A stretch of 64,000 bases of DNA from Sulfurivirga caldicuralii (GTDB taxonomy: Bacteria; Pseudomonadota; Gammaproteobacteria; Thiomicrospirales; Thiomicrospiraceae). The stretch covers positions 186,001 through 250,000 of the forward strand of contig NZ_FSRE01000003.1 in NCBI RefSeq assembly GCF_900141795.1. The letters are read 5' to 3'. A model generated the notes under the pieces. That model did no database searches, was not told where the DNA came from, and saw only the letters and a list, made by a program, of their open reading frames with translations. The translations under genes were made by a program, and so were the position numbers. Position 1 is the stretch's first letter. Each line of letters starts with the position of its first letter. Positions 20,715-36,540 of this stretch are shown here, one piece after another.

Positions 20715-21446
20715 TCAGGGCGAAAAGGGTTCGATCTTGCCCGTTTTGGGGTTCAGATGGTGTTTCTTGTCGATGGTGATGACCACGCGGCGGTTCATGG
20801 CGCGGCCATATTTGGTGTCGTTGGGGGCGACAGCATCGTTATCCGCACGCCCCTGAATGGTAATCAGGCGCTTGTCCACGCCCATGTCGATGAGCACGCG
20901 CGCCACGGTGCCTGCCCTGGCGGCGGACAGCTCCCAGTTGGAGGGGAACTGAATGTTGCGGATGGGCACAATGTCGGTATAGCCGGTAATGGTAATGGGA
21001 TAAGGGCGCCCTGCCAGCTTCTCGGCCAGGCGCTCCAGCTCTTCACGCACCTTGTCAGAAATCGTGGCGCGCCCCGGCTCGAAGAAGTGATCCGACTTGA
21101 GGGTGATGCGGGTGTAGTCTTCCGTATCCTCGATCTCCACATTCTTCGGATCGTTCAGCGCCTGCAGAATCTCTTCCTGGGTCAGCGGCGGCTTCAGATC
21201 CTGAATGGGTGTCACCACTTCCGTAGCGATGGTCTGTTGCCCTTTACGCTCATCCGGGTGAATTGTTTTCTGCGCGCCATTCAGGTTCTGCAATGCATCC
21301 GCCAACTGCTCCCGCTGCGCCGGTTCCACAATGGCCGCCAGCCACATGACCAGAAAAAAGGCCATGAGCACCGTCATCATGTCGGCAAGGGCAATCTTCC
21401 AGCTACCGCCGTGTGCACCGCCCTCGTCGTGTCCACGCCCAGCCAT
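20715..21446 (-). CDS. motB: Flagellar motor protein MotB
   Basis: Stator subunit that anchors MotA to peptidoglycan and carries the ion-conducting Asp. The 243-residue product has one membrane helix (ALADMMTVLMAFFLVMW) with the conserved Asp, a plug region, and an OmpA-type peptidoglycan-binding domain (ITITGYTDIVPIRN, NWELSAARAGTVARVL, RRVVITID). It follows motA by two bases. No other flagellar genes lie in the window. Confidence 0.95.
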   Translation of the reverse strand: MAGRGHDEGGAHGGSWKIALADMMTVLMAFFLVMWLAAIVEPAQREQLADALQNLNGAQKTIHPDERKGQQTIATEVVTPIQDLKPPLTQEEILQALNDPKNVEIEDTEDYTRITLKSDHFFEPGRATISDKVREELERLAEKLAGRPYPITITGYTDIVPIRNIQFPSNWELSAARAGTVARVLIDMGVDKRLITIQGRADNDAVAPNDTKYGRAMNRRVVITIDKKHHLNPKTGKIEPFSP

Positions 21447-21448
21447 GC

Positions 21449-22291
21449 CTATTTCTCCCAGTCGATTTCGAGTTCAGGCGGCACCAGCTGCTTGCCCGTC
21501 TCGCGAATCAGATTGGGGGATACACCGTGCTCAAATGCTTCCAGAAGCACCTTCACCATCTCAAACAGGGCGCGCTCCTGGCGAATCATGACCTCCACTG
21601 CATGACTGAAAGGGGCGACGATGGCAAAGGCAAAGAACACCCCGGTGAGCGTACCCACCAGCGCGGCCCCAATGGCTTGCCCGATGGCGGCCACGTCCAT
21701 ATCGCCCCCCAGCAGTCCCATGGCCAGAATCACCCCCAGCACGGCAGCGACGATACCGAAACCCGGCAGCCAGTCCGACACCTTGCCGGTAGCGCGCGGC
21801 ACTTCCTGCAACGCATCCATGTAGTTGTCGATCTGCATTTCCAGCAGGCCGCCAAAATCTTCACTCTGCGGGGGATTGAGCAGCAGATAGTTCAGATTGC
21901 TGGCGACAAAGTCGCGCAGCTCGGGATAGCGCAGCACGGAAGGATACTGGGCAAAGATCGGGCTGGCCGCCGGCTCGAGCAGATGTTTTTCCATCGCCAG
22001 CATCCCCTCGGCACGGGCAAAGCGCGACAGGTCGTACATCAGCATCACCACTTCCTTGTACAGCGCCTTGCTGATGCGGTCGCCAGAGAAATAACGCCGG
22101 AGGAACATGAGCGTGCGCAGCCACACCGCTACAGGCGTAGAGGCCAGAAAGGCACCCAGAGCCATACCGAGGATGATGAGCAGTTCCGACGGGTGCCACA
22201 GGGATATGAGGCTGCCGCCCTCAAGGGCGAAACCGCCCAGCAAGCTGGCAAAAATCAGAATAATGGCAAAAAACTTGGCGGCGAGACCCAT
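21449..22291 (-). CDS. motA: Flagellar motor protein MotA
   Basis: Four-helix stator subunit, 280 residues, that couples proton flow to rotor torque. The third and fourth helices carry the prolines and glycines of the family (SDWLPGFGIVAAVLGVILAM, AIGAALVGTLTGVFFAF). The cytoplasmic loop includes YPELRDFVASNLNYLLLNP. The sequence is closer to flagellar MotA of the E. coli type than is the second MotA-like protein at 34330. Confidence 0.95.
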   Translation of the reverse strand: MGLAAKFFAIILIFASLLGGFALEGGSLISLWHPSELLIILGMALGAFLASTPVAVWLRTLMFLRRYFSGDRISKALYKEVVMLMYDLSRFARAEGMLAMEKHLLEPAASPIFAQYPSVLRYPELRDFVASNLNYLLLNPPQSEDFGGLLEMQIDNYMDALQEVPRATGKVSDWLPGFGIVAAVLGVILAMGLLGGDMDVAAIGQAIGAALVGTLTGVFFAFAIVAPFSHAVEVMIRQERALFEMVKVLLEAFEHGVSPNLIRETGKQLVPPELEIDWEK

Positions 22292-32849: not shown

Positions 32850-33605
32850 CTATTTGTTGCTAACAGGGGTTTCAGCCTCTGCAGAGGGGGTCCCCGACTT
32901 TTTCACGACGCGATTTTTTGCCGCCTGCGCTTCGCTGACGAACTGGGCGCTGATGACGATGTCGATGCGGCGGTTGAGCGCCTTGTGCGCAGGGGTATCA
33001 TTGGGCGCCAGCGGCCGGGTATCACCATACCCCACAATGGAAAACAGCGGCCGCGGCAGCAGGGAGGTTTTCTGCAATCGATCGGCGACACGCTCGGCGC
33101 GCAGCGCCGACAGAATCCAGTTGTCGCGCAGCGGCGACGTGGGCGCGATGGGGTCTGCGTCGGTATGCCCTTCCACTTCAATATTTACCTGCCACACCTG
33201 CCCGTACTCCCGAGCGCGCAACACAATCCGCCGCCCTGCGGCAGTCTCCTGCACACTCAACAGCGGCATCAGCCGCAGCACATAGCCCAGTTCGCTCAAC
33301 TGCTCGCGCAGACTGGCACTGGGGACGGCAGAACCACTCTCAAAGGCATCGGAATTGTTGATGCGAATCAACACCCCCCGAGGATCACGCAAGATGCGAA
33401 AGTAGGTAAGCCCTCGCGACCGGACCTCCGCCTGCAGAAAGGCATGGGTCTCGGCCAGCGTGTCATCCACCCACTTCTGCACCCGCGAGATGGCACCGTA
33501 ATTAAGGGCCAGCATCATGATGAAAAAAGTGATCAGCAGCGTAACCGTATCGCCAAAGGATAGCAGCCAGCCCATCTGTGCCCGCGCCCTGACGCCCTCA
33601 GCCAT
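32850..33605 (-). CDS. MotB/OmpA-like stator protein with conserved Asp (second set)
   Basis: A 251-residue protein with one N-terminal membrane helix, SFGDTVTLLITFFIMM. Its Asp aligns with the ion-carrying Asp of MotB. A linker and an OmpA-type peptidoglycan-binding domain follow (VEGHTDADPIAPTSP, ILSALRAERVADRL, NRRIDIVISAQ). The frame opens earlier, but ATG 33605, overlapping the upstream gene by eight bases, gives the normal MotB start. The C-terminal tail KKSGTPSAEAETPVSNK is encoded by repeat copy 3 and runs into an IS-like scar, so it may not be the original end. Confidence 0.85.
   Translation of the reverse strand: MAEGVRARAQMGWLLSFGDTVTLLITFFIMMLALNYGAISRVQKWVDDTLAETHAFLQAEVRSRGLTYFRILRDPRGVLIRINNSDAFESGSAVPSASLREQLSELGYVLRLMPLLSVQETAAGRRIVLRAREYGQVWQVNIEVEGHTDADPIAPTSPLRDNWILSALRAERVADRLQKTSLLPRPLFSIVGYGDTRPLAPNDTPAHKALNRRIDIVISAQFVSEAQAAKNRVVKKSGTPSAEAETPVSNK
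32886..32903 (-). repeat. Dispersed repeat copy 3 (in MotB-like gene, encodes KKSGTP)
   Basis: GGGGGTCCCCGACTTTTT on the plus strand. Read on the minus strand in the frame of the MotB-like gene, it gives KKSGTP, a different frame from the VGDPP copies. The tail CACGACGCGATTTTTTGCC resembles other copies. Confidence 0.88.
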
Positions 33606-34329
33606 CCGTTTCACCTTCTGCCTTGATAAGCTGCGGCTGTAGATACAGCTCCACGCGACGATTGCGCGGATCCATCGGGTCCGGAAACAGGGGGTGCCAG
33701 GCGCCATAGCCGGCAATGGCCCAATAACGGGGCGGGATCGCTGACAGGGCCTGCAAGCGCTTCATCACCGCATGAGCTCGAAACACGCTCAAGGTCACAT
33801 TATCGGGGTAAGGCGCATTAGGGGCGGGTGGCGTGGCATCGGTATGCCCTTCCACCCTTAGGGTCAGCTGCACCCGCAGCCCTTTTCGATGAACGGGCCG
33901 CAACAAAGCGGTGTGAACGCGATCAAACGCTGGCACATCCAGGCTGTGCAAAAAACGCGCGATCTCGCGCAGATAGGGGATAAAGCGGGGGTTCAGCTGG
34001 GCGCGGGCGGAATAAAACAGGGGCTGGTCAGCAAACAGAGCCGGATCCGGATAGAGGCGCACCCCCTTGGGAAAGGCATTTTCCACGCGCAACCAGTCCA
34101 GACCCTCTTCATGCGCATAACGCTGCACGGCTTGCGTCAGATCCTGCAGCATCAGCTGATAGGCGCGCTTTTCCGGCACCCCTTCGAGGATCACCTGCGA
34201 AATCAGCACAATGAAAAAGGCCAGCAGGGTCAGAAAAAGGGAAACGAAGGTCAGCAGCCAGACGCGCTGAAAACGTCCAGACTGATCCGACTCACGGGAA
34301 GAAGGCGATGCCTCCTCGGGTGCAGCCAT
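33598..34329 (-). CDS. MotB/OmpA-like protein lacking the ion-binding Asp (second set)
   Basis: A 243-residue protein with an N-terminal cytoplasmic tail and one membrane helix, LTFVSLFLTLLAFFIVL. In alignment on the AFF motif, Ser stands where MotB has the conserved Asp. The C-terminal OmpA-like domain is kept (LRVEGHTDATPPAPN, LSVFRAHAVMKRL, NRRVELYLQ). It lies between a MotA-like gene (adjacent, no gap) and a second MotB-like gene that keeps the Asp (8-base overlap), so the three are very likely made together. By itself it should not conduct ions; a heteromeric stator is an inference. Confidence 0.82.
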   Translation of the reverse strand: MAAPEEASPSSRESDQSGRFQRVWLLTFVSLFLTLLAFFIVLISQVILEGVPEKRAYQLMLQDLTQAVQRYAHEEGLDWLRVENAFPKGVRLYPDPALFADQPLFYSARAQLNPRFIPYLREIARFLHSLDVPAFDRVHTALLRPVHRKGLRVQLTLRVEGHTDATPPAPNAPYPDNVTLSVFRAHAVMKRLQALSAIPPRYWAIAGYGAWHPLFPDPMDPRNRRVELYLQPQLIKAEGETDG

Positions 34330-35157
34330 TTAGCGCACCTCCTCCAGTTTCTGCGCCAGACGATCATCCACAAACGCCAACAGGCGTTCCTTCAGCATCA
34401 GCGGGCTGTCTCCCCGCTTCAGCGCCACGACGCCTTCCACGACCATTTCCCGATACAGCTGTTCCGCTTCATTGAGCATTTTCAGCTTGCCGGCGATAGG
34501 CATGAACACCAGATTGGAGAGCAGCACGCCATAAAAGGTGGTAACCAGCGCTACCCCCATGCCTGTCATCAGTGAGGCGATCATGTTCTGCGACTCGGCC
34601 GCACCGAAGGCCGCCGCGGCCTGATCACCGCCCTGTGAGGCCATCATCATGATCAATCCCATCACCGTACCCATCATGCCAAACGCCGGTGCATAGGAAG
34701 CCATGGTGAGAAACACTTCTTCACAGACCGACGCCTTGAGCTGCTCCAGCTTGAGGCGAATACCCAACGCCTTGCGCAGACTTTTTTCATCCTGATAAAC
34801 GAGGGCTTCAGAAATGGCAAAGCGCAGAAAGGGCTCATCAATGGTATCCACGAGCCTTTCGATATGAACGAGGCCGTGGCGTTTAACGTCATGGGCCAGT
34901 TCCACCAGCTCTGCAACGACGAACGCCTGATCCGGCACTTCCCGCCAGAAAATACGCCAGAACCCGACAGGGATGCATTTGAGCTGATCCAATGGATAAT
35001 TGACCAGCACTGCCGCAACCACGCCGCCCACCACCAGCAGGAGCGCCTGAATATTAAAAAAGGCGCTGATGATCTGACCCTTTTCAAAATCATACGTCCC
35101 CAGCAGGAGAACGATCAGGCCGATCAGAGCGCCCAAAATGGTCGCGGTTTTACTCAT
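34330..35157 (-). CDS. MotA-like stator protein (second set)
   Basis: A 275-residue MotA/PomA-type protein. Helices 3 and 4 read ASYAPAFGMMGTVMGLIMMM and MTGMGVALVTTFYGVLLSN, the conserved Pro/Gly pattern of ion-driven stators. The N-terminal pair of helices (TILGALIGLIVLLLGTYDF and ALLLVVGGVVAAVLVNYP) resembles the PomA group. It lies eight bases after plsC and directly before two MotB-like genes. It may power the flagellum beside MotAB or another envelope machine. Confidence 0.88.
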   Translation of the reverse strand: MSKTATILGALIGLIVLLLGTYDFEKGQIISAFFNIQALLLVVGGVVAAVLVNYPLDQLKCIPVGFWRIFWREVPDQAFVVAELVELAHDVKRHGLVHIERLVDTIDEPFLRFAISEALVYQDEKSLRKALGIRLKLEQLKASVCEEVFLTMASYAPAFGMMGTVMGLIMMMASQGGDQAAAAFGAAESQNMIASLMTGMGVALVTTFYGVLLSNLVFMPIAGKLKMLNEAEQLYREMVVEGVVALKRGDSPLMLKERLLAFVDDRLAQKLEEVR

Positions 35158-35164
35158 AACTCCC

Positions 35165-36007
35165 TTATGTCACGGCGGGCTCACCTCCAGCTCGGCTTAA
35201 AAGGTGTGCGGCGAACCACGCTTTCATCTGTTGTGCAATCTGTTTCGGCGGCTGACCGTAAAAATTGAACGGCTCGCTGATCACCACCCGAATCGTGCCC
35301 GGGTATTTCAAAAAGCTGTTCTTCGGCCACATTTCACCGGCATTGTGCGCCACCAGATAGCTGGGCACATCAGCCTTGGCCGCCAGCATCGGGCCACCAA
35401 TCTTGATCTCGCCCAGCACGCCCGGCGGCATGCGCGTCCCCTCGGGAAAAATCGCCACCCACAGGCCCGCCTGCAGACGCTTCAATCCTTCGCTGACCAG
35501 TTTCTGCAGTGCCTTTCGCCCCGCCTTGCGGTCCAGCGCAATGGGATGCAACAGCGCCATGCCCCAGCCGAAAAAGGGAATCTGTAGCAACTCCTTCTTC
35601 AGCACATACACCTGCGGCGGGAAAATCGACTGCAGTGCGATCGTCTCCCATGCCGATTCGTGACGAGCAAAAATCAGGCCATTTTTTCGGGTGTCAATAT
35701 TTTTACACCCCTCAACCTGATAGCGAATGCCACAGGTCACCTTGAGCCACCACAGGGTGAACTTGCCCCACAGCGTCATGTAGCGGTAGCGAACCTTAAA
35801 CGAGAACGGCCACAGAAACTGGCCGGTGACGGCAAAAAAGATCATCGAGGCAATCCGCCCGATTTCGAACAGCGTGGAGCGCACCAGCACCACCGGCAGC
35901 CAGCGCTGCCAGCCGCCGGGCGCCGGCGACGCCTCTTGCGGGGCAGGCGGCGAACTCTCGGGCGTTGGCAGTGTGTGCCTGATGGACGACTTTTCCTTTA
36001 CGGACAT
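35165..36007 (-). CDS. plsC: 1-acyl-sn-glycerol-3-phosphate acyltransferase
   Basis: Adds the second acyl chain in phosphatidic acid synthesis at the inner membrane. The 280-residue product has the catalytic motif as ARHESAWET (HX4E in place of HX4D, common in this branch), FPEGTRMPP and a membrane-anchoring helix near 40-65. The Pro-rich N-terminal 35 residues look disordered. The position after gmhB in the glyQ-glyS-gmhB-plsC order is conserved. Confidence 0.93.
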   Translation of the reverse strand: MSVKEKSSIRHTLPTPESSPPAPQEASPAPGGWQRWLPVVLVRSTLFEIGRIASMIFFAVTGQFLWPFSFKVRYRYMTLWGKFTLWWLKVTCGIRYQVEGCKNIDTRKNGLIFARHESAWETIALQSIFPPQVYVLKKELLQIPFFGWGMALLHPIALDRKAGRKALQKLVSEGLKRLQAGLWVAIFPEGTRMPPGVLGEIKIGGPMLAAKADVPSYLVAHNAGEMWPKNSFLKYPGTIRVVISEPFNFYGQPPKQIAQQMKAWFAAHLLSRAGGEPAVT

Positions 36008-36540
36008 AATGCCTCCGCAACGGTAGCAAGGTTGTCATGAACCGGTACGTTCAGGGCAGCAATGTCCTCCGCATGGCTGGCCAGCGTGCGCTCCCCCTTG
36101 CCGCTGCGCACCAGTATGGGCTGCATGCCCACTGCCTGCGCCGCCTGCACATCGCCCCAAGTATCGCCTACAAAGGGCACGCCCGTCAGTTCACAGCCGT
36201 AGCGGGCGGCGATGGCACGCAGCATGCCCGCACCCGGCTTGCGCGCCGGCGAATTGTGATGATCCAGATAGGGAGAGGTGCTGATCCAGTCCACACGACC
36301 ACCCAGCGGCCTCAGCAAGCCCTGCAGCTTCTGGTGCATGGCGCTGAGGGTGGCGTGATCGTAATAGCCGCGCGCGATGCCCGACTGATTGGTGGCCACC
36401 GCCACCGTCCAGCCGGCCCTGTTCAACCTGGCGATCGCCTCCAGACTGCCGGGCACCGGCACCCACTGCTCGGGCGACTTGATAAAGGCGTCGGAGTCTT
36501 CGTTAATGACGCCGTCGCGGTCCAGCACGATAAGGCGCAT
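35998..36540 (-). CDS. gmhB: D-glycero-beta-D-manno-heptose 1,7-bisphosphate 7-phosphatase
   Basis: HAD phosphatase in ADP-heptose synthesis for the LPS core. The 180-residue product starts MRLIVLDRDGVINEDSD (nucleophile Asp in the DxD motif), then has ATNQSGIARGYY and FVGDTWGDVQAA. The Cys/His zinc loop of E. coli GmhB (CxH...CxC) is not present: here the corresponding segment is STSPYLDHHNSPARKPGAG. It overlaps plsC by ten bases and lies two bases after glyS. Confidence 0.92.
   Translation of the reverse strand: MRLIVLDRDGVINEDSDAFIKSPEQWVPVPGSLEAIARLNRAGWTVAVATNQSGIARGYYDHATLSAMHQKLQGLLRPLGGRVDWISTSPYLDHHNSPARKPGAGMLRAIAARYGCELTGVPFVGDTWGDVQAAQAVGMQPILVRSGKGERTLASHAEDIAALNVPVHDNLATVAEALCP

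Follow-up and report, generated by a model that had tools for sequence, protein, structure and literature searches.

Flagellar stator units of the MotA5MotB2 and PomAB type contain two identical B subunits, each bearing an ion-binding aspartate. According to published 5:2 models, two equivalent sites work by turns and one ion passes per 36-degree step, so that a full turn takes ten ions (PMC9389320). The AglR-AglQ-AglS gliding motor of Myxococcus xanthus combines one MotA-like with two MotB-like proteins (PMC9389320, PMC9120999); both AglQ and AglS have been described as possessing the conserved aspartate and wall-binding domains that resemble TolR, and it is not known if the two pair with each other (PMC9389320). 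A search of the open-access literature recovered no published account in which a MotA is paired with a MotB that lacks the Asp, and text matching in a 2025 survey of MotAB evolution found no mention of two or tandem MotB proteins or of the aspartate.

We analysed a stretch of 64,000 nucleotides (henceforth the window) from Sulfurivirga caldicuralii, a member of the Thiomicrospirales with a genome of 1.67 Mb (seven contigs, 99.99% complete) and with Hydrogenovibrio and Thiomicrospira as relatives. It contains a minus-strand operon at 32850-35157 in which a MotA-like gene is followed by two MotB-like genes, here termed MotB-S and MotB-D after the residue at their ion site (Table 1); all three genes lie contiguously where the original prediction, made from the DNA alone, had placed them. 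No nucleotides separate the MotA and MotB-S genes, and the MotB-S and MotB-D genes share 8 nt. For MotB-D a longer frame that begins with TTG (to 33716) is also open, and the relatives agree with the ATG at 33605. The downstream neighbour of the trio, by reading of the sequence, is rpsT.

Table 1. Features of the trio locus and of the canonical stator pair in the window
Feature	Position	Strand	Remarks	Evidence
Canonical MotB	20715..21446	minus	outside the trio; with Asp (ADMMTVLMAFF)	sequence/profile search
Canonical MotA	21449..22291	minus	outside the trio; E. coli-like	sequence/profile search
MotB-D	32850..33605	minus	251 aa; Asp19 at the ion site, GHTD	Pfam OmpA 5.6e-11, MotB_plug 2.7e-7
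MotB-S	33598..34329	minus	243 aa; Ser30 replacing the ion-site Asp, GHTD kept	Pfam OmpA 1.5e-6
MotA-like subunit	34330..35157	minus	275 aa; heads the trio	Pfam MotA_ExbB, PF01618, 1.3e-19
PlsC-like acyltransferase	35165..36007	minus	directly upstream of the trio; same neighbours in several Thiomicrospirales genomes	Pfam Acyltransferase
GmhB-like HAD hydrolase	35998..36540	minus	upstream; conserved context	Pfam Hydrolase_like

The MotA of the trio, which is conserved across the order, yields NCBIfam matches of the MotP/MotC type that fall under the equivalog cut-offs, and its relatives in the PDB are MotA and PomA. Its channel-lining Pro/Thr motifs are present (P157 and T206-T207, inside the invariant APAFG and ALVTTFYG). 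Both MotB-like proteins display the N-terminal membrane helix, plug and OmpA domain of a B subunit, with the Pfam MotB_plug model matching MotB-D and returning no match to the MotB-S of the window. They share the wall-binding motifs GHTD, LS..RA and NRR, the first of which had been claimed for both from the outset. Where a standard axle has an ion-binding Asp in each of its B subunits, the trio has Asp in MotB-D and Ser in MotB-S; this difference, noticed earlier from the sequence, is independently confirmed by an alignment to the S profile, in which Ser30 falls on the Asp of the solved MotB chains 8ucs, 6ysf and 6ysl. Single-chain AlphaFold2 models, for which only the window sequences and related loci served as input, show a single long helix at the N terminus, together with an OmpA fold, in both MotB-S (mean pLDDT 82) and MotB-D (mean pLDDT 79), and the top Foldseek matches to the MotB-S model are the periplasmic domains of MotS, MotB and PomB.

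The explanation that we favour, with a probability of about 0.6, is that the trio forms a single rotary stator of the MotAB type, powered by ions, the axle of which would be an S/D heterodimer within five MotA subunits. The original prediction had called it a second stator operon, which is correct within the window, where a canonical MotA/MotB pair occurs. Genome-wide the description needs amending: a further Asp-bearing MotA/MotB set, read from the sequence as adjoining a FliL-like protein, is situated near FliG in the flagellar cluster on another contig (C6), making the trio the third stator set. The canonical pair of the window stands apart from that flagellar cluster. In this genome the trio is most likely a putative auxiliary stator beside the two canonical MotAB sets. 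As a separate observation, FliG_C matches beyond the true FliG are seen in most genomes of the order, and tandem proteins of about 154 aa, at least one of which resembles the FliG C-terminal domain, were encountered at L181:5837-8273 (G053), directly after a MotA/MotB operon, and at L182:7745-8676 in the genome of S. caldicuralii itself (G000:C5:303.7-304.7 kb), where the pair occurs without such an operon.

The original prediction proposed a search for the trio in other genomes and required its conservation in relatives, which is what we observe: a full-length MotB-S with an adjoining MotB-D is found in 45 of the 63 genomes of the order (table count), and MotA lies upstream of MotB-S wherever the examined stretch reached. 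The ion-site Asp of MotB-D is present in 34/34 sequences, and the equivalent position of MotB-S (n=39) is occupied by Ser (15), Ala (12), Gly (9), Thr (1) or Asp (2), within a nearly invariant flanking helix. Chance or a sequencing artefact as the source of the Asp loss is excluded by this conservation. Likewise, decay of MotB-S as a pseudogene can be rejected because it is about as conserved as MotB-D (median pairwise identity of 42% versus 43%) and retains GHTD in 39/39 cases. The MotB-S proteins that bear Asp (TFADVFTALLTFF) belong to two sister genomes (G057 and G059; loci L026 and L032) and are nested within the S clade of the MotB tree beside a Ser-bearing relative, suggesting, most simply, that the Asp was regained in them. 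In one further genome the MotB-S frame is broken (G021:C1:417018-417673, locus L051) and MotA and MotB-D remain open, reflecting either real decay or a sequencing error. Where this neighbourhood is present in the examined genomes, the usual gene order is glyQ-glyS-gmhB-plsC-motA-S-D; the early-branching genomes represented by L043 and L044 have the trio with other neighbours.

A class-wide MotA search uncovered a trio outside the order in a distant gammaproteobacterium of family f121 (G182), comprising a MotA, an Asp-less MotB with Ser (FVSLFMILLAFF) and a MotB with Asp. A phylum search with the MotB protein of this genome showed that families f207 and f227, which belong to another class, possibly the Zetaproteobacteria, have trios in this A-S-D order too. 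Within these second-clade trios the Asp of MotB-D is present in 33/33, and the ion site of MotB-S is Glu in 28 and Gln in 4, the remaining one being unread owing to a trimmed start. When the S profile of the second clade was run against the sampled Gammaproteobacteria, the top matches gave no clear trio other than that of G182, which was retrieved with an E-value of 1.5e-75; the next match (5e-40) is a canonical MotB. In the MotB tree the Thiomicrospirales S and D proteins are sister groups (97/89), and the second-clade S groups with the f121 S (97/93) and the second-clade D with the f121 D (99/88); the MotA tree also separates the Thiomicrospirales trios from those of the second clade. An insertion of about 22 residues before GHTD is common to the S and D proteins of Thiomicrospirales and absent from the second clade. 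The sister relationship and the shared insertion point to a duplication within the operon in Thiomicrospirales, followed by loss of the Asp, and the grouping in the trees together with the insertion pattern indicates two independent origins of the trio. A single common origin of all trios is disfavoured by the trees, in which Thiomicrospirales S and D are sisters and the second-clade S and D group apart. Hence, judging from sequence, the ion-inert partner probably arose at least two times, by separate duplications that resulted in an identical gene order, a conclusion that is well but not perfectly supported, the trees being rooted at their midpoints and the f121 S forming a long branch.

The second-clade copies resemble flagellar stators both in lying among flagellar genes and in being the sole stators of flagellated genomes. 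Two complete genomes, those whose clusters were examined, have the trio inside the flagellar cluster, which in one of them, as confirmed with Pfam, reads FliK-FlgD-FlgE-MotA-S-D-FliL-FliM-FliO-FliP, and in G182 FliK-, FlgK- and flagellin/FlgL-like genes are found near the trio. In nine genomes (G182, G431, G437, G455, G476, G503, G509, G513 and G582) the two B proteins of the trio are the only MotB_plug matches, and a MotA of the same type is present as a single copy. Since the MotB_plug model detects the E. coli-type MotB in the genome of S. caldicuralii, a stator of that kind would not easily have been missed in these nine. FliG is found in eight of them; the exception, G455, is 99% complete and has the trio with no FliG_C match, which could be due to a missing contig or to loss. 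The second-clade MotA also displays the canonical rotor motif RK(D/E)G.LALE, in which R90 and E98 are both canonical.

In the window's own lineage the flagellar link is weaker, and a flagellar role less certain: the trio follows a housekeeping operon rather than flagellar genes, the position of the rotor-side E. coli R90 is relaxed in its MotA to K, Q, H, Y, L or F, two other MotAB sets are encoded in the genome, one of them in its flagellar cluster, and about 17 FliG-bearing genomes of the order, several of them incomplete, are without the trio. The same features would be expected if the Thiomicrospirales trio were an envelope motor, Tol/Ton- or gliding-like, built on the same 5:2 chassis. 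This reading, which concerns the role of the unit and overlaps with a heterodimeric axle, we consider less likely: E98 corresponds to an invariant acidic residue, the fold that anchors to the wall is retained in both MotB proteins, the trio that arose independently in the second clade is flagellar, and G054, the sole genome of the order without FliG, also lacks the trio and any MotB_plug protein, the last being a single event.

The division of functions between the two B subunits is most apparent in the second clade, where the Asp of GHTD is lost from MotB-D in 18 of the 33 trios and kept by MotB-S in 33/33. The variants in MotB-D (GHTN, GHTS, GHAN, GHAS, GHSN, GHAG and GFVS) fall, as read from the D tree, on four or more of its branches, and the loss may weaken wall binding rather than abolish it. 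In G513, where the trio is the sole stator and FliG is present, MotB-S combines Gln at the ion site with GHSD, and MotB-D combines Asp with GFVS, so that neither homodimer would have both standard functions; of the arguments from sequence for a mixed complex, this is the strongest. Such comparisons suggest that motor function and anchoring are divided between S and D, favouring a MotA5:S1:D1 arrangement.

The principal alternative concerning the axle itself is that a MotB-D homodimer within MotA5 is the motor and MotB-S a separate accessory outside the axle, for instance an assembly factor, an extra anchor or a plug-like regulator. G182 speaks for this and against the heterodimer: there the decay is reversed, with MotB-S having lost both the ion-site Asp and the GHTD Asp and MotB-D being fully intact, and in that genome D alone could work with S as an accessory. 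The missing MotB_plug match of the window's MotB-S points in the same direction. As a general account, however, it seems unlikely, given that MotB-S retains a MotB-type membrane helix that is near-invariant around the site, that it is encoded in the same operon in a fixed order in two independent clades, and that in several trios that are sole stators or lie in flagellar clusters MotB-D lacks the GHTD Asp, which would leave a D2 stator without the standard anchor. That non-conducting MotA5:S2 units brake the motor or compete for stator sites is quite improbable, for although most S proteins lack the ion Asp and have the wall anchor, a single MotA gene serves both S and D, and where D is without the GHTD Asp a separate S2 would be unpowered and a separate D2 poorly anchored. 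Correlations of the A, S and D distances (0.88-0.92), considered as evidence of contact, are uninformative since they cannot separate contact from co-inheritance.

Under the heterodimeric arrangement MotB-S and MotB-D would share one complex, with five MotA surrounding one copy of each. MotB-D alone would bind and release the driving ion. MotB-S would fill the second position of the axle, with a site residue that cannot cycle as Asp does (Ser, Ala, Gly or Thr in the order, Ser in f121, and Glu or Gln in the other class), and would supply the peptidoglycan anchor. With one cycling site, a turn of MotA would consume about 5 ions in 72-degree steps, at half the maximum torque. The Glu-bearing S proteins may behave differently from such a one-site cycle, as Glu could carry protons. 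The heteromeric one-ion-site stator of the original prediction thus finds comparative support in the conservation of the trio, its two origins in the same gene order and the separation of ion site and anchor in the second clade; its 5:1:1 ratio we infer. The fuller proposition, namely a rotary motor occurring in nature whose axle is permanently asymmetric, with one ion-cycling and one ion-inert MotB, running on about 5 ions per turn of the MotA ring in 72-degree steps, at half the ion use and half the maximum torque of a standard unit, evolved at least two times and able to drive a flagellum, is offered only tentatively.

If true, a one-Asp stator with distinct B subunits would show whether 5:2 motors need two ion sites. 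If heteromeric, the trio would also allow mutations to be made in one B subunit alone, and would show directly if functional heterodimers are formed by MotB-type proteins, as has been asked of AglQ and AglS. The pair of sister genomes in which Asp has apparently returned to MotB-S offers a natural comparison of one-site and two-site versions.

Among known systems, the Zorya ZorAB motor resembles the trio in its MotB-like subunit, and weak matches to the ZorB model and weak fold matches were obtained; identity with this defence motor was rejected given the lack of a ZorA match to the 275-aa MotA, the upstream plsC and gmhB, and the housekeeping neighbours. Operons of the ExbB-ExbD1-ExbD2 type likewise combine one A-type subunit with two B-type subunits in tandem; these are Ton-system proteins without OmpA anchors. 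The AglRQS gliding motor was likewise set aside, as the B subunits of the trio are of the OmpA rather than the TolR type and its neighbours are glyQS, gmhB and plsC, with no Agl/Glt context; unlike AglRQS, the trio has one Asp-less B subunit and OmpA domains in both. The MotA5MotB2 and PomAB flagellar stators share with it the subunit families, the membrane helix and the OmpA-type wall anchor, and the second-clade trio even resides in a flagellar cluster; in contrast to their two identical Asp-bearing B subunits, the trio has two distinct ones, of which one bears the Asp.
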